Assembly (NCBI RefSeq): GCF_001690195.1 | Contig: NZ_LZGM01000070.1 | Coordinates: 1 to 64,000, forward strand | Reading direction: 5' to 3' | DNA length: 64,000 nucleotides | Source of the DNA: Gilliamella sp. wkB108 | Lineage (GTDB): Bacteria; Pseudomonadota; Gammaproteobacteria; Enterobacterales; Orbaceae | Position numbers and translations under genes: made by a program | Shown: piece after piece, positions 5,417 through 20,741 of the stretch | Layout of the letters: the number at the start of each line of letters is the position of its first letter | Position numbering within the stretch: the stretch's first letter is position 1 | Notes under the pieces: model-generated | The model's input: the letters and a program-made list of their open reading frames with translations, nothing else | What the model was told of the DNA's origin: nothing | Database searches by the model: none

Positions 5417-5622
5417 TGCGAGATGTTATCGATCGAGCCAATGACCTTGCCCAACTGGAACTCGACAACCTGATTGCTAATCGAAAAACGTTTCAAGGTG
5501 AATCGGCTACACATTGTATTGAATGCGATGAACCTATTCCTGAAAAACGCCGTCAGCTATTAAAAGGTTGTCAGTTGTGCGTAGATTGCCAACGTTTAAA
5601 AGAAAAATTAGCTAAAAGATAG
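5416..5622 (+). CDS. TraR/DksA-type zinc-finger protein
   Basis: 68 residues. The DksA zinc finger is complete: C34-x2-C37, then 17 residues, C55-x2-C58, with an extra Cys at 52. Short TraR-like proteins bind in the RNA polymerase secondary channel and mimic DksA/ppGpp. P2-like phages carry one in the early operon. The start at ATG 5416 is chosen because it overlaps the previous stop and gives the normal TraR length; an upstream in-frame ATG at 5365 would lie entirely inside the previous gene. 19 bp precede the replicase gene. Confidence 0.85.
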   Translation: MRDVIDRANDLAQLELDNLIANRKTFQGESATHCIECDEPIPEKRRQLLKGCQLCVDCQRLKEKLAKR

Positions 5623-5641
5623 CGCTCAGAGATCACACACC

Positions 5642-7801
5642 ATGACCACACTTATAACAAGCTTGCCACCGCTTGCCGTTAAGGATAAGCATAAGTTATT
5701 TTTGGCTATGCAGGATTATTATGACAAAATCGGGCGGTTTTTGCCCAATAAACAGATAATCAGAACGCCAATAACAGCGCCAATTTCATGCAAAAAAATG
5801 CCACACGCTATTAGTTATAATGAGGTCAAATTGTGGCAAGCCGATCCGGAAGATCATGAATTTCGAACCAAATATTTAGCCGATCTACCCGATTTTTTAA
5901 GTAGCTATTTTGCTAATAAATATATAAAACTCTTACAGAGTCAAGGCCGCCAAGCTGCCAATAGCTTTTTACGTCATACACTTGGCGGTAATATTCATGC
6001 CCGTCTTAATTTAGTTAACCAACAATATAAAACCAATAAATCCAGTGCATTATCGATTAATTTTGCCAGTGAATTTGCTAAACTTCCCACTTTAACGCCT
6101 CATTGTATAAATGAATTAAGTGTTGAGATAGCGCATTATTTAGAAAAGCACATTCAACATTTACTTGATGATCGAACTTTTTGCCTATCAGCCAATGAAA
6201 TTGATGCCCACAGTTTGGAACATAAATTATATGTCGCGATTTTAGTTGAACTTAAAGGGATTAATATTGATCCACCCTACTTTAATGATTATAAAAATGG
6301 CAAATTGACTAATGACAATTGTGTCAGAGCGTTAGCAAAAATAACCAATCAAGAGTGGTGGCAAAAAAAATTAAAAACTCGCCGCGACTATCAACACGAA
6401 CATTTAGCGATAGCAGTTGGTCAAGTGCAAAAAAAGGCCTCTGCTTATGCTAGCCGAACTTGTCAATCAGAGTGGCGAGAACAGAAACGCCGTAACCAAA
6501 AATATCTCCAAAAAATGGCTATCGAAAACGAACAAACCGGAGAACAAATTCCGCTTGATTTACAAGTCTATAAATCGATTACCAATCCTGCAATAAGGCG
6601 TGTTGAATTAATGACACGCATGCGTGGTTTTGAAGATCTTGCCGATGAGATGGGTTATCACGGTGCATTTATTACCTTAACGGCTCCTTCCAAATATCAT
6701 AGTACTTACGCTAAAGGTGGTTTTGTTGAAAATTGGCAAGGAAACAATCCGCGCGAGACTCAGGCTTATTTATGTAAAATCTGGTCACGCATTCGGGCTA
6801 AACTTAATCGAGAGCAGATCAAATTTTTTGGCTTTCGTGTTGCTGAGCCACATCATGACGGCACGCCACATTGGCATATTTTGATTTTTATGCGGCCGGA
6901 ACATTTAGCCCAAGCTTTTAAAATCATGTGGATTTACGCCATGGATGAAGATAGTGAAGAAAAAGGCGCATCAATCAATCGCTTTGAATTTAAAGATATC
7001 GATAAGCAAAAAGGTTCGGCAACAGGTTATATCGCTAAGTATATTGCCAAAAACATAGACGGTTATGCACTAGATAATGAAATTGATGATCAAACGGGTA
7101 AAAATCTCAAACAGACAGCAAAAGCGATAAGTGCGTGGGCCAGTCGCTGGAAGATCCGCCAATTTCAGCAGTTAGGTGGAGCGCCGGTCAGTGTCTGGCG
7201 TGAGTTACGTCGATTAAAAAATCAAAAAGTGGCTAATCAGATAATCGATCCAATCTTAGCTTCAGCCGATATTGGTGATTGGGCTGCTTATACTGTTCAT
7301 CAAGGTGGTCCATTAGTGCCACGCAAAGATCTTAAAGTCAGACTAGCTTATGAAGAAAAGCTGAACCAATATGAAGAGCCTTTTAAAAAAATTAAAGGCA
7401 TATTTGCGCCTATTATTGGCTTAGCGTCTTTTATCTGCACAAGGCTTATTAACTGGAAATTGGTACCAAAGCAAAAATCAACTCAGGATGTTGACCTTAA
7501 ACATCGAGCGAAACGCTCGCCTTGGAGTTCTGTCAATAACTGTACGCCACAAGATCTTTCATTGAAAGCAGATCATCAGATAACAGAACGGCAAATAATA
7601 GAGCAACAGTTAAAAATAATTGGTGTACCTAACGATGATCTAACCATAAACCGACTTTATTTGCGACAAAATATAAAAATTAATGCTAAACAGTACTTAA
7701 AATTGGATAACCAGCTTAATGGTGTACACCTGATTATTAGTCAAGCACCAGTTAGAACAATAAAGCAACAATCTGACGAAGTCATTGAATTTGAGTTTTA
7801 A
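5642..7801 (+). CDS. A: Replication protein gpA (HUH rolling-circle endonuclease)
   Basis: 719 residues (P2 A is 761). Phage_GPA family: nicks the phage origin and starts rolling-circle replication with the host Rep helicase and polymerase III. Visible catalytic elements are the HUH motif (TPHWHILIF, H410 and H412) and two tyrosines, Y463 and Y467, in GYIAKYIAKN, the two-Tyr signature of this superfamily. N-terminal ~320 residues are accessory; the C-terminus past ~600 is variable. It is the last gene of the early operon. In P2 the origin lies inside this gene; I could not locate the nick site. Apparently intact, so the element may still replicate after excision. Confidence 0.95.
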   Translation: MTTLITSLPPLAVKDKHKLFLAMQDYYDKIGRFLPNKQIIRTPITAPISCKKMPHAISYNEVKLWQADPEDHEFRTKYLADLPDFLSSYFANKYIKLLQSQGRQAANSFLRHTLGGNIHARLNLVNQQYKTNKSSALSINFASEFAKLPTLTPHCINELSVEIAHYLEKHIQHLLDDRTFCLSANEIDAHSLEHKLYVAILVELKGINIDPPYFNDYKNGKLTNDNCVRALAKITNQEWWQKKLKTRRDYQHEHLAIAVGQVQKKASAYASRTCQSEWREQKRRNQKYLQKMAIENEQTGEQIPLDLQVYKSITNPAIRRVELMTRMRGFEDLADEMGYHGAFITLTAPSKYHSTYAKGGFVENWQGNNPRETQAYLCKIWSRIRAKLNREQIKFFGFRVAEPHHDGTPHWHILIFMRPEHLAQAFKIMWIYAMDEDSEEKGASINRFEFKDIDKQKGSATGYIAKYIAKNIDGYALDNEIDDQTGKNLKQTAKAISAWASRWKIRQFQQLGGAPVSVWRELRRLKNQKVANQIIDPILASADIGDWAAYTVHQGGPLVPRKDLKVRLAYEEKLNQYEEPFKKIKGIFAPIIGLASFICTRLINWKLVPKQKSTQDVDLKHRAKRSPWSSVNNCTPQDLSLKADHQITERQIIEQQLKIIGVPNDDLTINRLYLRQNIKINAKQYLKLDNQLNGVHLIISQAPVRTIKQQSDEVIEFEF

Positions 7802-8131
7802 TAAAGTTGGAAAGATGTTTCAGGTTAACCCTACGTCTTAATATAAAGTTAAAATATGATTTAAGGAGAATGCCATGTAATACGGCTATTTTTAGCAATA
7901 AATTTGTAAAATTTGGTAAAGAATTGCATGCCAGAAAAGCTAAAACGAATTAGCAATATCCTTGAGTTTTCAGGCAAAAACGGCTAATTGAGCTATTTAC
8001 TAAAAAAAATGCTATACCAATTAGGGATCTGTTTTGACTCAGTATTTGTGGTTAGAATAACTTAAGAATATAGAGAAACAGATAATTAATTTTAGTAATT
8101 TACAGATGATCACAATTTTACAAAATGTTAC
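7802..8131. other. Non-coding stretch after gpA, with a dispersed-repeat copy
   Basis: No useful ORF. At 7810..7847 it carries a copy of a dispersed element (core GATGTTTCAGGTTA) found elsewhere in the window at 8926..8966 (inverted), 30834..30867 and 50025..50400. At 7863..7880 a strong ribosome site (AAGGAG) is followed by ATG immediately followed by TAA, probably the scar of a lost gene. Confidence 0.6.
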
Positions 8132-8173
8132 TTGATCACCACGGTAAATATTATATACTGTATATATATACAG
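8132..8173 (+). promoter_or_regulatory. LexA-controlled promoter (SOS box)
   Basis: CTGTATATATATACAG at 8158..8173 is a perfect LexA palindrome (CTGT-N8-ACAG with the AT-alternating centre of the enterobacterial consensus). It overlaps a promoter with -35 TTGATC (8132..8137) and -10 TATACT (8154..8159), 16-bp spacer. LexA would block the promoter until DNA damage. It drives the 59-codon ORF at 8190. Confidence 0.88.
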
Positions 8174-8189
8174 CTAAGAGGGTAAAAAA

Positions 8190-8369
8190 ATGGACGAACT
8201 AGAAAAAATAAAAACAATAGAACGAGCAGAACTACTTTCACGTGTTGTAACCGAAAATTTGCATTTGAGAGAACGAGATAAAGATATTGCATTATTTTGG
8301 TTTCGTGACCTATTGGAACCCTTGAAAAATCACATGTTTAAAGAATCTATAGAGGAACAAAAAAGGTAA
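8190..8369 (+). CDS. Small SOS-induced ORF, candidate antirepressor
   Basis: 59 residues, highly charged and predicted helical, no known domain (starts MDELEKIKTIERAELL). A ribosome site AGAGGG lies just upstream of ATG 8190, a perfect LexA box 16 bp before that, and a terminator hairpin overlaps the stop. In phage 186 the LexA-repressed tum gene makes an antirepressor that inactivates a non-cleavable CI. The repressor here also lacks a peptidase domain, so an equivalent role fits. This is inference from regulation and context; there is no sequence similarity to Tum that I can see. Confidence 0.7.
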   Translation: MDELEKIKTIERAELLSRVVTENLHLRERDKDIALFWFRDLLEPLKNHMFKESIEEQKR

Positions 8370-8389
8370 CTTAACTTACGTTACCTTTT
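8361..8389 (+). terminator. Terminator hairpin after the SOS ORF
   Basis: A 10-bp stem AAAAGGTAAC/GTTACCTTTT with a 9-base loop overlaps the stop codon of the SOS ORF. It lies between convergent genes and has A and T runs on both sides, so it can act in both directions. Confidence 0.75.
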
Positions 8390-8411
8390 ACAATCAAACA
8401 ACAAAATGTCA

Positions 8412-8618
8412 CTATTTTGTATTAGGATGAGGATCTTTTACTGAATCACCCTGCCCGGTCAAAATATACCAACCATTTTTAGTATGTGGTTTTTTATTAT
8501 AATCAGGGCAAGGTGGTAAGGACTTTTTACTTTGGTTTGAATAAATATATCCACAGTCTGCACATTTATAAGTTCCTGCAGAAACATCACTACCGTATGA
8601 AGCAAATTTTTGTACCAT
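8412..8618 (-). CDS. Small zinc-ribbon-like protein
   Basis: 68 residues. The pattern TYKCADCGYIYSN, then LPPCP, then GWYILTGQGD resembles short zinc-ribbon proteins with two Cys pairs. Here the second pair reads C-P-D-Y, so the fourth ligand is replaced by Tyr and zinc binding may be weakened. The start is placed at ATG 8618 because a strong GGAGGAG ribosome site lies just upstream; a longer TTG-initiated frame to 8633 would overlap that site. Convergent with the SOS ORF. Function unknown; likely cargo. Confidence 0.7.
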   Translation of the reverse strand: MVQKFASYGSDVSAGTYKCADCGYIYSNQSKKSLPPCPDYNKKPHTKNGWYILTGQGDSVKDPHPNTK

Positions 8619-9056
8619 TACAAGCTCCTCCAATAAATTAAGTTAATGATAAGCACATTACTTATCGTTGCTATATATAATCGTTGCTTAAAAAAAAAGC
8701 AAGTGATGTTTTTTATCCCTCTTTTTAAAAGAGGTTTTTGCACTGACTTTACCTCTCTATTTCAATAAGGCATAGCAAAATTAGGCAAATCAGTTGCAAT
8801 GGCTATTGTTAAGTTACTAAGCTTATGCAGTTCAAGTGGATTTCTTTTTATTGGTAACCTTGTATTGAGTGATTAAATGTGGAAATAATAAACAGTCAGC
8901 GCCCCCTGATTAATATAAAATCTCGGTTTTATACTAAAACATATAGTTAACCTGAAACATTTTAACAAGTTGTCATCTGTTCAATCAGGCATTGGTCTTA
9001 ATTATTACTTTAATGAATTTTACTGCAAATCATCTCATCTACCGAAACCTGCCTTT

Positions 9057-9081
9057 ATTTGTAAAAATTTCCTCTACAATT
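9057..9081 (+). promoter_or_regulatory. Ogr-type late-promoter element, copy 1 (upstream of X)
   Basis: TTTGTAAAAATTT followed by CTACAAT gives TGT-N13-ACA, shared in sequence and spacing with copies at 12059, 18395 and 20635. P2-family late promoters carry an Ogr/Delta dyad of TGT..ACA form centred near -55. This copy would drive the lysis-tail operon starting with X, with a TATATA at about 9124. Confidence 0.65.
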
Positions 9082-9158
9082 TAGGTTAGTTGCGATATTA
9101 CTCATTGCAAACGACCATACCCATATATAGGCGTTTTTAACCGAGTGACCCTCACCTC

Positions 9159-9214
9159 TCGGCGGCACAAAGAGTCTAGTGGGTTATTCAAACTCTATCT
9201 TTGTTCACCGCCGA
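9159..9214. repeat. Inverted repeat upstream of tail gene X
   Basis: TCGGCGG-C-ACAAAG (9159..9172) pairs with CTTTGT-TCA-CCGCCGA (9199..9214) across a 26-base loop. It is GC-rich in an AT-rich region and lies in the 5' leader of the late tail operon at the point where the head block is absent. It could be an RNA structure in the leader or a scar of the ancestral cos/head region; the sequence does not decide. Confidence 0.55.
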
Positions 9215-9294
9215 TCCTCTTTTGTTAGTTTTGAAGTGAGTTTTACCGTTTAAAAATATCAGTCAATCACGATAAGCGAAGGAGTAATTAAAAG

Positions 9295-9498
9295 ATGATT
9301 GTTTATGCCATGCAAAATGAAACTGTTGACGCATTGGCGTATCGTGTTTTTGGTAAAACAACTGGGATTGTTGAAATTATTTATCAAAATAATCCTAAGC
9401 TGTGTGAATTACCAGCGATGTTACCAATTGGCACCGAAATCGATGTGCCTGAAACGGTACCCGAACCCAAACAAAAACTCATTAATTTATGGGATTAA
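9295..9498 (+). CDS. X: Tail protein X (LysM-like)
   Basis: 67 residues with the LysM-like layout of P2 gpX (NETVDALAYRVFGKT, then NPKL, then LPIGTEIDVP). gpX is a small tail protein thought to help anchor or terminate the tail and baseplate hub. Strong ribosome site (AAGGAG) before ATG 9295. First gene of the late block; in P2 it directly follows the head genes, which are missing here. Confidence 0.9.
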   Translation: MIVYAMQNETVDALAYRVFGKTTGIVEIIYQNNPKLCELPAMLPIGTEIDVPETVPEPKQKLINLWD

Positions 9499-13115: not shown

Positions 13116-14014
13116 CCGACTTATCAAAATTACCCCCTCCGGACATCATTGAATCATTAGACTATGAAACAATTTTTGAGCAACGTAAAAACAAATTTAT
13201 CTCACTCTATCCAGCTGAACAGCAAGAGGAAGTAAAAAAAACCTTACAATTTGAAAGTGAACCGATTGTCAAACTACTACAAGAAAGTGCTTATTATGAA
13301 TTGATTTTACGACAACGGATAAATGAAGCTTCTCAAGCGTTGATGATCGCTCATGCAAAAGGTAACGATTTAGACAACTTAGGGGCTAATTTTCATGTTT
13401 ACCGATTAATTATTCAACCAGCTGACAATACCGTAACCCCTGCAATTGAAGAAATCAAAGAATCAGATAGTGATTTTAGACTACGTATTCAGTCGGCTTT
13501 TGAAGGGTTATCGGTTGCTGGTCCTCGTGCTGCTTACGAATTTTATGCGCGTAGTGCAGATGGGCGTGTTTTAGATGCCGCTGCAGAAAGTCCATCACCG
13601 GCCTGTGTAACTTTAGCTATCTTATCGCGAGAAAATAATGGTATTGCTAGTGAAGATCTAATCCATATTATCCAAAATGCTGTCAATCAGGATAACCGTA
13701 GACCAATAGCTGATCGCGTTACAGTGAAATCAGTAGAACTGATTGATTACACAATTAAAGCTAAACTCTTTCTCTACCCTGGTCCTGAATCTGAACCAAT
13801 TAAGAAAGCGGCAATCAATAATTTACAATCTTATATTAATGAAAAACACCGTATTGGCAGACGCATTAGTCGTAGTGCAATTATTTCAGCGTTACATGTT
13901 GTTGGCGTTCAACGCGTTGAATTAGAATCCCCCGCACAAGATATATTAATCAATCGCGAACAAGCCAGTTATTGCAAAAATTATCAAATTGAGGTAGCAG
14001 GTTATGGCGAATAA
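13103..14014 (+). CDS. J: Baseplate assembly protein gpJ
   Basis: 303 residues, full-length P2 gpJ type (302 in P2), with LSKLPPPDIIESLDYETI at the start and IGRRISRSAIISALHVVGV near the end. It is the outer wedge protein that connects baseplate to fibres via gpI. 13-bp overlap with W and 11-bp overlap with I. Confidence 0.93.
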   Translation: MATLTDLSKLPPPDIIESLDYETIFEQRKNKFISLYPAEQQEEVKKTLQFESEPIVKLLQESAYYELILRQRINEASQALMIAHAKGNDLDNLGANFHVYRLIIQPADNTVTPAIEEIKESDSDFRLRIQSAFEGLSVAGPRAAYEFYARSADGRVLDAAAESPSPACVTLAILSRENNGIASEDLIHIIQNAVNQDNRRPIADRVTVKSVELIDYTIKAKLFLYPGPESEPIKKAAINNLQSYINEKHRIGRRISRSAIISALHVVGVQRVELESPAQDILINREQASYCKNYQIEVAGYGE

Positions 14015-14693
14015 AACGCTACTTCCACCCACTGCTACCGCACTAGAAAAGAATCTATCACAAACCATGGTTTGTGAACCACCCATACCTTTACGCTCTC
14101 TTTGGGATGCACAAACCTGCCCTTTTGAATTATTGCCTTACTTAGCTTGGCAATACAGTGTAGATCGCTGGGATGAAAACTGGTCTGAACAGACCAAACG
14201 TAAAGTAATTAGTGAAGCCTTTGAAATTCACAAACTCAAAGGTACTAAAGAATCTATTCGTCGTGCTGTCGAACCCTTTGGCTATTTAATTAATGTTATT
14301 GAATGGTGGCAAAATCAACAACAACCTGGCACCTTTGCTTTAGAAATCGGGGTATTAGATAAAGGGATCACCGAAGAATCTTACAATGAATTAAGTCGAA
14401 TTATCGATGATGTTAAACCGGTTTCCAGGCAATTAAATGGATTAGCTATCCAATTAGTCACCCAAGGTACATTGACAATAGGTGCTAGCAGTTACGATGG
14501 TAATACATTAAATATCTACCCTTATGTTGCCGAAACAATCACAACAACATCTGAACGCCAAATTGGTGCAAGTAATTATGATATTAATACCTTAAATATT
14601 TATCCTTTTATTAATGAAAATATAACAACACTTTCCGAAAGCCAAATTGGCGCAACTATTCATTTTATTGATACGATGAGCATAAAACCATGA
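14004..14693 (+). CDS. I: Tail protein gpI with C-terminal repeats
   Basis: 229 residues. The first ~155 are the gpI domain (SLWDAQTCPFELLPYLAWQ, then KLKGTKESIRRAVEPFGY), which attaches fibres to the baseplate. Most gpI proteins end near 180 residues; this one carries an added tail of a 28-residue repeat (IGASSYDGNTLNIYP-type) present about 2.5 times, visible in DNA as an 84-bp period from 14478, 14562 and 14646. Ends with a 4-bp overlap into H. Confidence 0.9.
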   Translation: MANKTLLPPTATALEKNLSQTMVCEPPIPLRSLWDAQTCPFELLPYLAWQYSVDRWDENWSEQTKRKVISEAFEIHKLKGTKESIRRAVEPFGYLINVIEWWQNQQQPGTFALEIGVLDKGITEESYNELSRIIDDVKPVSRQLNGLAIQLVTQGTLTIGASSYDGNTLNIYPYVAETITTTSERQIGASNYDINTLNIYPFINENITTLSESQIGATIHFIDTMSIKP

Positions 14694-15796
14694 GTCAAAA
14701 ATACTACACAATATTAACCAAACTTGGAGCCGAATTGCTAGCTAATGCAACTGTACTCGGTACTCCTTTAAAATTAACCCAAATAGCTGTTGGTGATGCC
14801 AATGGCTCAATACCCAACCCGATTGCTACGCAAACTTCGCTTGTTCATGAAGTACGCAGAGCAGCGATTAACACTCTTTTTGTTGATAAGGATAATCCTA
14901 ATCAACTGATCGCTGAACAAGTTATTCCAGAAACAGAGGGAGGTTGGTTTATTCATGAAATAGGTCTATATGACGATAAAGGTAATCTAATCGCAGTAGG
15001 AAATTGCCCTTCGACGTATAAACCTAAATTAGTTGAAGGCAGTGCGCGAACTCAAGTGATCCGCATGGTAATTGTCATTGATGATGTCAATGCTGTTGAA
15101 TTAAAAATCGACCCTTCGGTTGTATTAGCTACCCGACAATATGTCGATGAATTGATCACCACTAAAATGGCAAATCATGAAAAATCTACTAATCACCCTA
15201 ATGCAACCACTAAATCAAAAGGGTTTGTGCAATTAAATTCAGCAACCAATAGCACCGCTGAAAATCAAGCAGCGACTCCACTGGCAATCAAAACGGTAAA
15301 TGATAATGCTAATAGCCGTGTACCAAATATTCGTAAAATTAACAATAAAATGTTAAACAACGATATTTTACTTCAAGCAGATGATATCAATGCATTACCG
15401 GCATTTAGAAAAATTATTAACAATGAACCTATTTATGAGGTAGGTGAACAAACTAATTTTGTAAAAAGACCTAAAGCTAACAATTCTTACTTGTTAACTT
15501 TTGAAGATTTTTCATATGAAGTCTCAAATGGTATTATCATTTTACGTAGGGCTGATGGTTTAATTTTACAATATTTCAAGGCTGTATATAACGGTGTCAA
15601 TGGAGCGAATGGAACAGTTGTATCACTACCCATAACATTTCCTAATAATTTTTATTTTGCTATAACTAGTGATGGCGATAATGGGTGTCATGTGGTAACA
15701 GCCTTACCTAATGATCTAACTTCAGTAAAAATGTGGGGAAAAGTTGGTGATATTTACGTCGATTCATTATTGCAAATAGTAGCAGTAGGGAGATAA
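14690..15796 (+). CDS. H: Phase-variable tail fibre gpH (currently expressed form)
   Basis: 368 residues. Residues 1-150 are the P2-type fibre N-terminal domain (DUF3751-like) that docks to the baseplate; a linker with NHEKSTNHPNATTKSKGF follows; from about residue 247 the C-terminal receptor-binding part begins. The junction codes PIYEVG and is the 19-bp crossover repeat 15427..15445, an inverted copy of which ends an alternative C-terminus at 17007..17440. Inversion would swap the last 122 residues for 143 others (389 in total). The N-terminal half is closely related to the second fibre at 18604. Overlaps I by 4 bp. Confidence 0.92.
   Translation: MSQKYYTILTKLGAELLANATVLGTPLKLTQIAVGDANGSIPNPIATQTSLVHEVRRAAINTLFVDKDNPNQLIAEQVIPETEGGWFIHEIGLYDDKGNLIAVGNCPSTYKPKLVEGSARTQVIRMVIVIDDVNAVELKIDPSVVLATRQYVDELITTKMANHEKSTNHPNATTKSKGFVQLNSATNSTAENQAATPLAIKTVNDNANSRVPNIRKINNKMLNNDILLQADDINALPAFRKIINNEPIYEVGEQTNFVKRPKANNSYLLTFEDFSYEVSNGIIILRRADGLILQYFKAVYNGVNGANGTVVSLPITFPNNFYFAITSDGDNGCHVVTALPNDLTSVKMWGKVGDIYVDSLLQIVAVGR
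15427..15445 (+). repeat. Left crossover repeat of the invertible fibre cassette
   Basis: ACCTATTTATGAGGTAGGT, found as an exact reverse complement at 17421..17439. It lies in frame inside gpH; reading through either copy keeps the frame PIYEVG, as required of a fibre-switch site. Weak similarity continues ~20 bp to the left (AAAAATTAT block). Confidence 0.9.
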
Positions 15797-15798
15797 AA

Positions 15799-16191
15799 AT
15801 GATTTTCTATAATGCACAAACTAATGGTTTTTATATTTCAGGATTTAATAATATTCCTGAAAATTCGAAAGAACTAACAACTGAATATCATGCTGAATTA
15901 CTAAAAAAACAATCTGAAGGATTTGTGATACAAGCTAATGATAATGGCTATCCTGTTGCGGTAGAGCGAGTTTTAACTTTAGAAGAAATTAAATCTATCA
16001 ATGAGTCAAAACAACAACAACTCCTTAACCGTGCAAATGAAAAAATAACTATGTTACAGCGAATTGTTAAATATAATCGAGCAACCAATGATGAAAGAAA
16101 ATTATTAGAACAGTTAGAATTATATACTGTTGAACTTCATCAAGTTGATACATCCGATATTAATGCTGTTTTTCCAGATATGCCTGAGTAG
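15799..16191 (+). CDS. G: Tail-fibre assembly chaperone (Tfa/gpG), expressed copy
   Basis: 130 residues of the Tfa family (starts MIFYNAQTNGFYISG; conserved NDNGYPVAVERVLT and the C-terminal four-helix part). It helps fold and trimerise the distal fibre. It follows the fibre stop by 2 bp. Its central and C-terminal parts are almost identical in DNA to the inverted copy at 16602..17000, while the N-terminal ~30 residues differ, as expected if each chaperone matches its own fibre tip. Confidence 0.9.
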   Translation: MIFYNAQTNGFYISGFNNIPENSKELTTEYHAELLKKQSEGFVIQANDNGYPVAVERVLTLEEIKSINESKQQQLLNRANEKITMLQRIVKYNRATNDERKLLEQLELYTVELHQVDTSDINAVFPDMPE

Positions 16192-16211
16192 AGATGATTC
16201 TCTACTCAGGC
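16182..16211 (+). terminator. Hairpin at the end of the expressed chaperone gene
   Basis: A 13-bp perfect stem GCCTGAGTAGAGA/TCTCTACTCAGGC with loop TGAT overlaps the stop codon. A second stem GAGTAGTGC/GCACTACTC at 16351..16372 repeats part of it. Few Ts follow, so it may be a weak or protein-dependent stop, or an mRNA 3' protector. Confidence 0.55.
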
Positions 16212-16601
16212 AAGATAAATCATAGTGTTACATTGTTATAACCGTTTAATATTGTAAGCGGAATGATAATAAGTTGATGGCAAATATAATTATTATGACG
16301 ACGAAAATTTACTAACTGTAGACAATTAGGATTTAAAAGGATAAAAAACAGAGTAGTGCGTTAGCACTACTCAGGAGCAGGTAGAAAATTGGCATTTGAT
16401 ATTTGTCTATATATGCTTGTGATTTGAACTGTATATAATTCTATATTTTTCCAATATCGATTTTTCAGTGTTTTTTGATAATTATATTTAACCATTTGTT
16501 ATATATGATTATTTTTATGAGTAAGATTAATGAAAATATCATATTCTTTAACTTGTGTAGATACAAATGAGTTAAAGATAAAATGGTCAGAACAGCCGTG
16601 A
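16212..16601. other. Spacer between the two opposed chaperone genes
   Basis: About 390 bp with no ORF. It holds the hairpin at 16351..16372 and a short stem GCCGTG/CACGGC at 16595..16611 over the stop of the leftward chaperone. After inversion the same spacer would still separate the two cassettes. Confidence 0.6.
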
Positions 16602-17000
16602 TTAACACGGCATTTCTGGAAAAGATGCATTACTATCTGTTAAGTCTATATGTGTAACATCTATTGTAAATAATTCTAATTTTTCCAATAACTGCTTTTC
16701 ATCATCAGTTGCTCGATTATATTTAACAATTCGCTGTAACATAGTTATTTTTTCGTTTGCAAGGTTAAGGAGTTGTTGTTGTTTTGACTCATTGATAGAT
16801 TTAATTTCTTCTGGGGTTAAAACTCGTTCTACCGCAACTGGATAGCCTTTGTCATTAGCTTGTATCTCATATCCCTCTGATTGCTTTGATAATAATTCTG
16901 CATGATATTCTGACGAAATAGTCACTGAATCATTTGGTATATTTTTATTAATAGAATCATCATAAAAACCGCCACTTTGTTTACTATAAAATAATGTCAT
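16602..17000 (-). CDS. Tail-fibre assembly chaperone, silent inverted copy
   Basis: 132 residues, Tfa family, about three quarters identical to the rightward copy (shared YPVAVERVLT and KQQQLLN..NEKITMLQR) with a different N-terminus (MTLFYSKQSGGFYDDS). It lies leftward behind the silent fibre C-terminus, 6 bp after its stop, and in this orientation has no late promoter. It should be expressed only after inversion. Confidence 0.9.
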   Translation of the reverse strand: MTLFYSKQSGGFYDDSINKNIPNDSVTISSEYHAELLSKQSEGYEIQANDKGYPVAVERVLTPEEIKSINESKQQQLLNLANEKITMLQRIVKYNRATDDEKQLLEKLELFTIDVTHIDLTDSNASFPEMPC

Positions 17001-17006
17001 AATTAC

Positions 17007-17440
17007 TTACCACCCAATTGTTAGAAAAAAATACGCATAGCTACCAGATTCAACTATTCCACCTTTTATTACCCCACGTGTACAAATAGTTATCTCACTA
17101 TTTGTCGTTTCACTATCTGAGGCTCCCCATACCGTTGTCCAAGGAACGCTATTTGTAAACCAAGCTTTAGCATCTCGTTCAAAAGCAGTAACAAATAAAG
17201 TTTGGTTTGGGTATGTAACAGGTAAGGTTATGCGTTTTCTTCCATCACTATTGGCATTCCCTATACCCCATTGAATTATGGCATTTTCAATTTTCCCGGC
17301 AATTAAGACAGGTATTTGGATATATCCATTTTTATTAAGTTGACCAGAACCAATAATTTTTTTGTTTTTATAAGTTGGGATGGTATTTAAGTTAACTAAT
17401 TTTAATAGTTCTAAAATAGAACCTACCTCATAAATAGGTA
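17007..17440 (-). CDS. Silent alternative C-terminus of tail fibre gpH
   Basis: An open frame without its own start, beginning at the crossover repeat (PIYEVG) and running 143 codons to TAA at 17007. It shows a fibre-tip domain (GYIQIPVLIAGKIENAIIQW, ITLPVTYPNQTLFVTA, ending in SYAYFFLTIGW) like the gp53-type C-terminal domains of phage fibres. It is different from the expressed tip, so inversion should change receptor specificity. No stop or frameshift is seen, so it looks functional. Confidence 0.88.
17421..17439 (-). repeat. Right crossover repeat of the invertible fibre cassette
   Basis: Exact reverse complement of 15427..15445. It starts 2 bp beyond the recombinase stop codon (17441..17443). 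The recombinase C-terminus (KLKIIGN) even resembles the fibre residues left of the crossover (RKIINN), suggesting the recombinase end was shaped by past exchange at the site. Confidence 0.9.
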
Positions 17441-18334
17441 TTAATTTCCTATAATTTTTAGTTTCTTATATTCACGTCCTCGACAATCATTATAACGATC
17501 CGTTGTAGCTTGAGTTTTATGACCAAGCAATGTCATCGTATCAACCTTTTTCTCACGATAGAGTCTTTCAGCTAATGATCTAATTTCATGAAAAGTTGTT
17601 GGTGTCCCTTTCCAATAACTCCTTTTAAAAGCTTTATCTCTTATTTTGGCAAAATCACGTGTAATTTTTTCAGCTGAAACGGATTTGCCTTTTCTATGGA
17701 TCACATGTTCATGATCTGATGATTCAATAATATCTTGTATACTAATACCAATTTTAGGGCAGGTTAATTTTGTCGGAAGCGCTATTTTTGAGCCTGTTTT
17801 ATATTGCTCAATAAATAAATAATTACGTTTTACATTTGATTTTTTCATTGTGATTATATCCGAACGCCTTTGCCCCGTTACAAGAGCCGTTATCATCGCA
17901 TCTTTAAGATAATGATATTGGTTATTTTTTTCCGCTTCTTGTGTAATACGTTTAAACTCTTTTAATACCATTCGACTACGTTTCACCGTAACTTTTGGAC
18001 ATTTGATTGGATCAGTTGGATTTTTATCATTCCAACCCTGAGCATAAGCTTCTCTGAAAATATCCCTTAATAAATGAAACATACATTTAGCCGATGGTGC
18101 CTTATCTTGATCCAGATAAATTTTTATAAGGTCATTTATATCAAACGGAGTAATATGAGTCACCTTTTTACACCCTATATTTTGACTAATTACTTTGATC
18201 ATATAGGTTTTTATTTCCATAGTTTTGGGTTTTAAATTTCTCTCAGATAAAATCTTCTTATACTCATTAAGCCAGTTATTAACTGTTTTTGATTTATAAC
18301 TTATTGATTTAAATAATTTAGATAAAATAATCAT
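17441..18334 (-). CDS. Tyrosine recombinase, probable fibre-cassette invertase
   Basis: 297 residues with all catalytic residues of the lambda-integrase family: R156 (TGQRRSD), H249-E-I-R252, H272 (LLGHKT) and Y281 (TTDRYND). It is unrelated in detail to the prophage Int. The stop abuts the right 19-bp crossover repeat and the gene lies just outside the invertible segment, so it is placed to invert it, the job done by serine invertases (Gin, Cin) in Mu and P1. The start is ATG 18334 with an AGGA ribosome site; an in-frame TTG at 18367 is less likely. Transcribed against the tail genes, so it is controlled separately. Confidence 0.88.
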   Translation of the reverse strand: MIILSKLFKSISYKSKTVNNWLNEYKKILSERNLKPKTMEIKTYMIKVISQNIGCKKVTHITPFDINDLIKIYLDQDKAPSAKCMFHLLRDIFREAYAQGWNDKNPTDPIKCPKVTVKRSRMVLKEFKRITQEAEKNNQYHYLKDAMITALVTGQRRSDIITMKKSNVKRNYLFIEQYKTGSKIALPTKLTCPKIGISIQDIIESSDHEHVIHRKGKSVSAEKITRDFAKIRDKAFKRSYWKGTPTTFHEIRSLAERLYREKKVDTMTLLGHKTQATTDRYNDCRGREYKKLKIIGN

Positions 18335-18394
18335 AGTAATTCCTAAAATTAATTGTTTTAGTGTCAAAAAAATTTCCCTATATTTTCCTTTTCA

Positions 18395-18431
18395 ATTTGT
18401 AAAAATTCAAATTACAAATCCAACCACTAAC
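18395..18431 (+). promoter_or_regulatory. Ogr-type late-promoter element, copy 3, within a duplicated 37-bp block
   Basis: TGT-N13-ACA dyad upstream of the second fibre. The 37 bp match 20635..20671 with one difference, and similarity resumes after a 19-bp indel at ACTATTTTTATTA (near 18452) and CCTATTTTTATTA (near 20672). The pair flanks the fibre-2/chaperone-2 module as a direct repeat, so the module probably entered by duplication or was bounded by recombination there. Confidence 0.7.
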
Positions 18432-18603
18432 CACTTTGTTAGTTATCTGTCACTATTTTTATTAATCCACTTTATGAAATGCAGCTCATAGGCAAATTAT
18501 AAAGGAAACCTAAACTAGACATTTTCACAATAAAACAAGTATTAACTCATTCGATCGCCGGTTGGCGATTCGATTTTTTTATATATATGGTGAGAGGATT
18601 AAT

Positions 18604-19980
18604 ATGAGCCAAAAATTTTATACACTAATAACCACCCAAGGAGCGGCATTATTGGCTAATGCCACCGCCCTTGGGATCCCTTTAAAATTGACTAAAATGG
18701 CTGTAGGGGATGCCAATGGTAGTGAATCACACCCTACTGCTACGCAAACTAAATTGATTCACGAAATTTATCGAGCGCCAATCAATACCATCACAACCGA
18801 CAAGGATAATCCCAATCAAATTATTGCTGAACTTGTGATCCCCGAAACACAAGGCGGTTGGTTTATTAATGAAATTGGTCTGTATGATGATGGAGATAAT
18901 TTAATTGCAGTAGGCAACTGTCCGGTTACTTATAAACCAAAATTAGTCGAAGGTAGTGGACGAACACAGGTTATTCGCATGATTATCATTGTGGATAATG
19001 TTGATTCAGTCCAATTAAAAATTGACCCAGCGACAGTATTAGCTACACGCAATTATGTCGATGAATTAATTGCCACTAAAATGACCAATCATGAAAAATC
19101 CACCAATCACCCTGATGCAACCACTCAATCAAAAGGGTTTGTACAATTAAATTCAGCAACCAATAGCACCGCGGAAAATCAAGCAGCGACTCCATTAGCA
19201 GTTAAAGATACATTTGATTATGCTAAATATGTGGACGAAAAAGCCCAATCCTCATATAACCATGCAACGGATGCTCATAATCGAATAACTGATGTACATA
19301 ATATTGTAAACCATATAGTTGATACGTTCCAATCCCAGGAATTTGAATCAGACGTTTTTTCTCCTGATAAACGATTTTGTATAATTATACGAAATGATGG
19401 TGTAGTCGGAATGTATAACAGGGTCAACAATAGACTGGCTTGGGGATTTACTCATGATGGTGTTCTGGGTGAAGGTTATGTACCAGTTGAACGAATACTA
19501 AATCTAGACCTGTTTATTCGGGACAGATGTATTCCGGTGGGGGTTCCGATGCCATGGCCACAAACCATCCCGCCGGGAGGATATTTTGAATGTAATGGCG
19601 CACCAATTGATAGAAATAGATTTTCGAAATTGGCGGCAGCTTATCCGTCTGGTTATTTACCAGATTTACGTGGCGAGTTTGTTCGAGGTTGGGATAATGG
19701 AAAGGGTATCGATCCTAGCAGAGGAATACTCAGTTGGCAGGGGGATGCAATTAGAAATATCTGGGGGCAAGTTGAAACATTTGTCACTGGCTCGACAAAT
19801 GACGCGAATGCTAGCGGAGCATTTTATTCAAAGGTGAATTCACGACCGGCATATCAACCTGGATCATCAGGTGGCGGAACACATCAAAAATTAACGTTAG
19901 ACGCATCAACACAGGTGCCAACTGCTCCAGAAAACCGCCCTCGCAATATCGCATTTATGTATATAGTTAAAGCAGAATAA
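18604..19980 (+). CDS. Second tail fibre with tail-collar domain
   Basis: 458 residues. N-terminal ~210 residues closely resemble gpH (DUF3751-like docking domain, shared linker NHEKSTNHPDATTQSKGF), then a distinct shaft and a tail-collar domain (about 345-395: GYFECNGAPIDRNRFSKLA, then YLPDLRGEFVRGWD) with a Gly/Ser-rich tip ending ENRPRNIAFMYIVKAE. ATG 18604 with a GAGAGGA ribosome site matches the gpH start (MSQK[FY]YT). It has its own late promoter. Having a fixed fibre beside a switching one would give the particle two receptor specificities. Confidence 0.9.
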   Translation: MSQKFYTLITTQGAALLANATALGIPLKLTKMAVGDANGSESHPTATQTKLIHEIYRAPINTITTDKDNPNQIIAELVIPETQGGWFINEIGLYDDGDNLIAVGNCPVTYKPKLVEGSGRTQVIRMIIIVDNVDSVQLKIDPATVLATRNYVDELIATKMTNHEKSTNHPDATTQSKGFVQLNSATNSTAENQAATPLAVKDTFDYAKYVDEKAQSSYNHATDAHNRITDVHNIVNHIVDTFQSQEFESDVFSPDKRFCIIIRNDGVVGMYNRVNNRLAWGFTHDGVLGEGYVPVERILNLDLFIRDRCIPVGVPMPWPQTIPPGGYFECNGAPIDRNRFSKLAAAYPSGYLPDLRGEFVRGWDNGKGIDPSRGILSWQGDAIRNIWGQVETFVTGSTNDANASGAFYSKVNSRPAYQPGSSGGGTHQKLTLDASTQVPTAPENRPRNIAFMYIVKAE

Positions 19981-19993
19981 CAGGAGAAAAATA

Positions 19994-20599
19994 ATGAAAT
20001 ATCAATTACAACCAGAAATAGCTATTTTAAATGAAGCTGGATTTACTACCACTGCTGGATGGGCAGTCATCCATAATGTTGATGCCAATACAGGTGAGTA
20101 TCTAACCGCTACCTATCAATATTTACCTATTGGTGTTGGTTTACCCGCTCATGCTTACTTAGATGCACCAAAAAATGTTGAAGACGGGCAAGCTATTGTT
20201 CGTCAAGAAAATCAATGGATTTACCCTAACGATTTTCGCGGTCAAAAAATCTATTCAATAAAAACTGGCATTGAATCAACAATGACTAAAATTGGTGAGA
20301 TTGAAAAAGGTTTCACATTATCAAAACCGTCAAGTGAATTTGATAGTTGGGACGGTGAAAAATGGGTATTAGATACCAATAAACAACATAATTATTATGT
20401 AAATAGGGCTATCTCACAAAAATCACAATTAATTAGTGAGGCTAATGAAAAAATTAGCTACCTACAAGATGCGCTGGATGCTGAAATAGCCACAGAGCAA
20501 GAAATATTAGCGCTAAATCAGTGGAAAAAATATCGGGTTGAATTAAATCGTATTGATGTTGAGCAAGCAGATAAAATTCAATGGCCTGAAAAACCCTAG
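19994..20599 (+). CDS. Tail-fibre assembly chaperone of the second fibre
   Basis: 201 residues, Caudovirales Tfa family of the longer type: N-terminal variable part binding the fibre tip and a C-terminal part with FDSWDGEKWVLDTNKQ and helical EANEKISYLQDALDAEIAT. 13 bp behind fibre 2 with a CAGGAG ribosome site. Clearly distinct from the two short chaperones of the switch cassette. Confidence 0.9.
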   Translation: MKYQLQPEIAILNEAGFTTTAGWAVIHNVDANTGEYLTATYQYLPIGVGLPAHAYLDAPKNVEDGQAIVRQENQWIYPNDFRGQKIYSIKTGIESTMTKIGEIEKGFTLSKPSSEFDSWDGEKWVLDTNKQHNYYVNRAISQKSQLISEANEKISYLQDALDAEIATEQEILALNQWKKYRVELNRIDVEQADKIQWPEKP

Positions 20600-20634: not shown

Positions 20635-20659
20635 ATTTGTAAAAATTCAAATTACAAAT
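20635..20659 (+). promoter_or_regulatory. Ogr-type late-promoter element, copy 4 (upstream of FI)
   Basis: Same 25-bp dyad as 18395..18419 (TGT-N13-ACA), located like the P2 F promoter. A TATTATAT stretch near 20683 is a plausible -10, and ATG of the sheath gene is 83 bp from the dyad. Confidence 0.7.
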
Positions 20660-20741
20660 CCAACCGCTAACACCTATTTTTATTATATGCAACTATTTGC
20701 ATGAATTAACTTTACGATATGTAAACCACAACGGAGATCTT

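Follow-up and report, generated by a model that had tools for sequence, protein, structure and literature searches.

A probable two-state invertible fibre-tip switch beside an arm-less lambda-Int-like recombinase in a P2-type element of Gilliamella

The stretch analysed here, hereafter the window, comprises 64,000 nucleotides of contig NZ_LZGM01000070.1 from Gilliamella sp. wkB108 (GCF_001690195.1), whose genome assembly amounts to 3.08 Mb in 129 contigs. A P2-type element occupies ca. 1.5-27.3 kb of the window and contains a tail fibre gene that runs into a segment bounded by two inverted copies of a 19-bp site, with a tyrosine recombinase gene beyond it. A preliminary description, made from the letters alone, had interpreted this arrangement as an invertible tail-fibre switch. 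The features of the locus are the following:

14690-15445, + strand: N-terminal, constant portion of the tail fibre (P2-type, gpH-like), 252 aa that end in the PIYEVG junction (Phage_tail_fib and Phage_fiber_2 domains; from translation)
15427-15445, + strand: left recombination site, ACCTAT-TTATGAG-GTAGGT (proposed division 6+7+6; exact repeat)
15446-15796, + strand: active fibre tip, in frame with the constant part (Gp53-like_C just below the Pfam cut-off)
15799-16191, + strand: assembly chaperone of the active tip (Caudo_TAP, PF02413)
16351-16372, - strand: terminator-like hairpin between the cassettes (from a pattern scan only)
16602-17000, - strand: assembly chaperone of the silent tip (Caudo_TAP, PF02413)
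17007-17438, - strand: silent fibre tip, in an open frame of 143 codons from the site to its own stop (Gp53-like_C, PF21882, above the cut-off)
17421-17439, - strand: right recombination site, the same as the left one (exact repeat)
17441-18334, - strand: arm-less lambda-Int-like tyrosine recombinase of 297 aa, the proposed invertase (Phage_integrase, PF00589; alignment to lambda Int; relatives beside the same site)

As found, the fibre gene (14690-15796) joins the constant part to the active tip in a protein of 368 aa, and the codons of the site, read as A/CCT/ATT/TAT/GAG/GTA/GGT, encode PIYEVG at the junction of both parts. Translation through the inverted segment keeps the frame and yields a fibre of 389 aa instead. 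The exact 19-bp inverted repeats, their common frame and the two opposed tip/chaperone cassettes that they flank are all as the preliminary description had them, and translation bears out the 143 open codons of the silent tip, for which base composition alone gives a chance of about 9e-6; the interval between the recombinase end and the right repeat, given there as 2 bp, is 1 nt. With up to 3 mismatches allowed, the site has two matches only in the window (0.03 expected), and the whole genome adds no other when 2 are allowed. An inverted repeat of 19 bp was reached in none of 200 dinucleotide shuffles of positions 13500-20500 (spacing 300-2500 nt), the longest shuffled one being of 17.

The site and the enzyme occur together across the genus. 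Among 35 Gilliamella genomes, eight (own included) match the recombinase at E 1e-20; close relatives account for nine matches in seven genomes, namely the own copy (100%) and eight at 66-72% identity, and there are distant matches at 42% identity in G032 contig C1 and in G022 (G, C and L numbers denote our genomes, contigs and loci). Allowing 1 mismatch at most, the site pattern ACCTAYTTAYGWGGTAGGT was found at 15 places in six genomes, all of them among the seven with a close recombinase, and at none in the 28 genus genomes without one (Fisher 4e-6, without correction for kinship). In seven of the eight close copies with a readable 3' end, the site overlaps the recombinase stop codon or lies within 4 nt of it. 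Likewise, the 2.9 million contigs of IMG/VR contain the exact pattern in two, a copy of our own genome and one with an adjacent recombinase. One more contig, L064, carries the site with a single base changed; being identical to L018 across the shared 7672 bases, it was not counted separately. L003 duplicates the own genome, and a single contig is the source of both L063 and L067.

Outside the genus, matches at E 1e-60 among 394 genomes of the order came from six genomes, five of them with open frames of 359-393 aa that are lambda-type integrases. The remaining one, G060, encodes a short relative of 301 aa near a lambda-type fibre, at a locus where neither inverted repeats nor the site were found. 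The own genome was the sole match among 369 genomes of the class at E 1e-45, and nine genomes of other genera in the family gave none at E 1e-40. Two further proteins were noticed in these comparisons. The 42% relative in G032 (L025, 6725-7624) is another arm-less recombinase, which by eye lies just beyond a gpD-like gene in a P2-type element and is enclosed by an imperfect 18-bp inverted repeat (6260-6277 and 8195-8212). In Pectobacterium phage ZF40 (L073, 18109-18999), gp28 is a 'putative integrase' of 296 aa, about as short as our enzyme, and a second integrase beside gp02; the fibre genes are distant from it, and the one repeat in its vicinity is an imperfect one of 21 nt.

Homologous loci have been inverted at the sites. 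L019 and L020 represent one lambda-type prophage locus from two genomes, with near flanks 98% identical; between the sites their identity is 44.6% as found and 82.6% with one segment reversed, and BLAST places the breakpoints in the sites or one base beyond. Similarly, the first 1000 nt of the segment in L022 and L023 are 51.4% identical as found and 95.5% reversed, next to a fibre flank of 90.4%; here only the breakpoint on the fibre side is visible, because L023 has lost the recombinase end. Comparing strains, as the preliminary description had suggested, thus turned up two locus pairs in opposed arrangement with their visible breakpoints at the site, and not the single orientation in all strains that it had named as evidence to the contrary. 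In addition, the contig comes to an end within 20 nt of the site at four of its 15 places (C23 and C42 of G028, C37 and C41 of G008). Both G028 contigs continue for one base after the site; in G008, C41 breaks off with the site itself and C37 goes on for 18 bases, and the two tips in C40 start on different bases. Such contig ends would fit reads that disagree on orientation, a reading that we take only as a hint, for the assembly is not simple: the first 1166 bases of C41 recur at the end of C40.

The variation among sites is itself informative. The central 7 bp were identical within each of eight site pairs, being TTATGAG, TTACGTG, TTACATG or TCGACAG, and the three mismatches observed between partners are confined to the left 6 bp (the 6+7+6 division is our own, and the pairing of L017 with L029, on two contigs of one genome, is presumed). 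A constant centre within pairs is in keeping with a tyrosine recombinase that requires the same overlap in both of its sites; the overlap of lambda Int is 7 bp, and the Gilliamella site may have one of the same length. For each of the 14 tips read from the sites, whether active or silent, one and the same phase stays open for 122-190 codons and the others for at most 11, although the 14 are partly homologous and hence not independent. Two loci have arrangements of their own. At L057 (G028 C22), sites ACCTAYTTACATGATAGGT at 7385-7403 and 9232-9250 enclose opposed tip/chaperone cassettes. At L021 (G015), a 47-nt inverted repeat, 91% complementary (5519-5565 and 6036-6082), lies within the coding region of a fibre collar domain; it contains nearly the arms of the site around a different 7-bp centre and in the same codon phase, with the frame open on both sides, which could make it a second place for tip exchange.

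The recombinase retains R157, K180, H250, R253, H273 and Y282, which we take to be its catalytic residues and which are invariant in seven aligned copies, so the complete residue set of the preliminary description holds. A profile built from seven Gilliamella sequences matches lambda Int, in solved structures, over residues 70-355, and a tblastn alignment with lambda starts at the matching point of the int gene. Because both alignments begin at about residue 70, the arm-binding domain (lambda Int residues 1-69) has no counterpart in the recombinase, and it is also absent from its Pfam matches. In all, the enzyme belongs to the lambda integrase family by its homologous core-binding and catalytic domains, which align end to end, and by its retained catalytic residues, but unlike lambda Int it is devoid of the arm-binding domain. 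The structure model (mean pLDDT 62.6) has lambda Int as its best PDB matches, at an rmsd of 7 to 12 Å, and these were used as support only; a model of the tip (mean pLDDT 41) was set aside.

A tree built from 18 proteins places the eight close copies of Gilliamella together (97/97) and has some long branches in its other parts; the broken gene L026 (G022) was dropped, its frame being of only 16 aa. The copies look to be under purifying selection: dN/dS was 0.049-0.178 in the 14 of 28 pairs for which it was computable, many of them with high dS, the other 14 being saturated at synonymous sites, and the closest pair (L019/L020, dS 0.07) gave 0.085.

Taken together, the comparisons of sequence make it very probable that the locus is a two-state invertible fibre-tip switch run by the arm-less lambda-Int-like recombinase. 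The enzyme would bind each inverted site as a simple core site, with arms of ca. 6 bp (ACCTAY/RTAGGT) around a 7-bp overlap, and flip the ca. 2 kb that the pair encloses. This would join the constant shaft in frame, through the PIYEVG that the site encodes, to either tip, each with its own chaperone behind it. Since the likeness to lambda Int covers the core-binding and catalytic part and leaves out the arm domain, the enzyme should need no arm sites and should run both ways; the element has an integrase of its own, distinct from it. A population carrying the element would then release tails with two binding specificities. A switch of the fibre by the adjacent tyrosine recombinase, as first described, is well supported by the co-occurrence of site and enzyme, by the two inverted locus pairs and by the absence of a match to the serine resolvase/invertase family (PF00239) in the genome.

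Several observations weigh against this interpretation. The inverted pairs come from different genomes, and they consequently speak of inversion over evolutionary time and not of a rate. G015 is the sole genome with a close recombinase and without the site pattern: at L021 the recombinase has no site at its 3' end, and the paired site sits in the fibre collar domain with another centre. No recombinase gene was seen next to the paired sites of L057; its genome, G028, has the recombinase at another locus (C23), from which these sites might possibly be switched in trans. The recombinase is truncated in L023 and cut by a contig end in G008 C20. The source genome has ten PF00589 matches, three of them from the two genes of the window. 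Finally, that the recombinase catalyses the inversion, that it is active in this strain and that the tips confer two specificities is what we infer from the above, as we do for the rate of switching, the control of its direction and its effect on target range.

One alternative is that the switch is real in origin and now locked in this strain, retained by chance. The truncated recombinase of L023 indicates that such losses happen, but in our strain the recombinase, both sites and both tips are intact, and the recombinase copies appear to be under purifying selection, for which we consider a locked switch unlikely. Inversion by some other recombinase of the cell, be it XerC/XerD or the integrase of another prophage, or by homologous recombination, seems to us very improbable. 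The genome does have further tyrosine recombinases, and the paired sites of L057 would suit an enzyme encoded elsewhere; however, the site is absent from 28 of 28 genus genomes without a close relative of the recombinase, and a serine invertase acting in trans was rejected for the source genome, in which no PF00239 protein was found. As to homologous recombination, the two chaperone genes form inverted arms of 302 nt, 84% complementary, and we take to lie in them the longest exact inverted repeat observed in 13500-20500 at spacings of 300-2500 nt, of 50 nt. A crossover there would, however, leave the tips unexchanged, and with the breakpoints at the 19-bp sites it was dismissed as an account of tip switching. 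Least credible of all is an ordinary integrase beside repeats left by a past tip duplication, with nothing inverting: the enzyme is a member of the phage integrase family and its best phage matches are annotated as integrases, but the element has a separate integrase (1504-2505), the silent tip is intact, and this reading was rejected on the co-occurrence of site and enzyme together with the natural inversion of homologous loci.

A two-state switch of this type appears to serve several kinds of tail. The recombinase or its sites are found with P2-type fibres in the window and in L022 and L023; with lambda-J-type tails in L019, L020, L021 and L057; and with a third, apparently contractile tail type in L018, L027 and L029. 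Parts of the module have different affinities within one locus. For instance, in L065/L066, where open reading frames (ORFs) resembling a P2-type tail adjoin the recombinase, the recombinase side is closest to L019 (79.6% of nucleotides, versus 73.1% to L018), whereas the side of the silent tip is 76.8% identical to L018 and at background (41.6%) with L019. Likewise, the fibre of L029 has an N-terminus like that of L018 (77.5%), while over the 76 residues directly before its site it shares 67% identity with the window's P2-type fibre. These mosaics support modular exchange across tail types, whatever might bring the exchange about. It is conceivable, although we hold it as a tentative idea more doubtful than probable, that the PIYEVG-like junction site is a common adaptor of unrelated tails and that the recombinase also moves tip cassettes between prophages or tailocins of one cell; if so, P2-type, lambda-type and other tails would draw on one genus-wide pool of tips.

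The entire fibre switch of L022 (G013, 5511-8633) adjoins a VgrG-like gene with Phage_GPD and T6SS_Vgr domains, and by eye there is no further phage gene among the ORFs of at least 90 aa between 3000 and 12000.

The element that carries the switch in the window contains, in order, an integrase, a gpA-like replication protein, spike gpV, baseplate gpJ, gpI, the fibre, sheath, tube, tape measure and gpD; the P2 tail and baseplate families matched are gpV, gpJ, gpI, sheath, tube FII, tape measure and gpD. Because the P2 major capsid family (PF05125) has no match in the whole source genome, the element is likely a P2-type tailocin, that is, tail-only, as the preliminary description proposed; there is no ORF of at least 80 aa at 7802-9298, and this assignment was made without a search for the portal and terminase families themselves. 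Outside the switch, the element includes the following genes:

1504-2505, - strand: the element's own integrase, distinct from the invertase (Int_N and Phage_integrase domains)
18604-19980, + strand: second P2-type fibre gene with a collar domain (no copy of the site inside)
19994-20599, + strand: chaperone of the second fibre (Caudo_TAP)

BLASTP of the integrase against the invertase gave no significant similarity. A repeat of ca. 88 nt, 82% identical, lies upstream of the second fibre gene (18395-18481) and at the start of the sheath ORF (20635-20721), and may represent a duplicated late promoter region. Within its 3' part, the gpI-like gene contains a tandem repeat of 84 nt, 73% identical (14477-14560 and 14561-14644).

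Among known systems, the Rci shufflon of R64 has 19-bp repeats and several segments and acts on the pilus tip PilV; in common with it, the Gilliamella switch has a tyrosine recombinase near a gene whose 3' end is rearranged. The 384-aa 'site-specific integrase' near pilV (R64, NC_005014), which we take to be Rci, was 25% identical to our enzyme over 83 aa (E 0.002, a single comparison), and we do not class the latter as Rci-like. Textbook fibre switches use serine invertases, and those of Mu and P1 have an opposed tip/chaperone layout. Ein, the invertase of carotovoricin, is presumably also a serine recombinase, and work by Nguyen in 2001 reportedly found that inversion in carotovoricin Er alters host range. 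Like Gin, Cin, Min and Ein, the Gilliamella system would flip fibre tips between inverted sites; Gin, Cin and Min are serine enzymes, whereas the Gilliamella segment adjoins a tyrosine recombinase (PF00589) in a genome without a PF00239 match. Serine recombinases are described for the fibre switches of Mu, P1 and p15B (PMC6109161), Ein for the fibre locus of the tailocin carotovoricin (PMC13195805), and a serine recombinase close to Gin and Cin for the P2-like Burkholderia phage KS14 (PMC3091744).

The closest precedent is the Rin shufflon, run by a tyrosine recombinase of Bifidobacterium breve and B. longum prophages (PMC6109161), with a Rin-like system reported in prophages of Eggerthella lenta (PMC8778435). 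Rin and the Gilliamella switch have in common a phage-encoded tyrosine recombinase that is separate from the integrase and lacks an arm-binding domain, a constant receptor-binding N-terminus joined to variable C-termini, and a recombinase gene placed beyond the variable segments, with inversions at a short site (PMC6109161). Rin differs in being a shufflon of several tips with 11-bp repeats in siphophages of a Gram-positive host (PMC6109161), whereas the Gilliamella switch has two opposed tip/chaperone cassettes, a 19-bp site, a lambda-Int-like enzyme, several tail types and a Gram-negative host. Of the Rin-type traits, we thus found an arm-less recombinase other than the integrase, alternative C-termini in frame and inversions between related genomes (two locus pairs), and two cassettes only instead of several tips. 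The tyrosine recombinase, called unusual in the preliminary description beside the serine enzymes of Mu and P1, has a precedent for receptor-binding tips in Rin (PMC6109161).

A literature search that fell short of most subscription journals returned, among the matches listed, no title on a Gilliamella fibre switch, and a term search of the text of two papers on honey-bee prophages and phages (PMC10259446 and PMC12586679) found no mention of one. What seems new is the combination of an arm-less lambda-Int-like enzyme, a two-state opposed cassette and several tail types, in a Gram-negative genus and in a likely tail-only element.

The arm-less lambda-Int-like enzyme appears to be a dedicated invertase, for which the site arms and a 7-bp overlap can be proposed from natural variation. 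Given that one recombinase/site module occurs in at least three Gilliamella tail types, including an apparent tailocin, tip choice looks like a plug-in part. For this bee-gut symbiont, the system opens the questions of how an arm-less tyrosine recombinase would control direction and of whether phase-variable tailocins may take part in the competition between strains.

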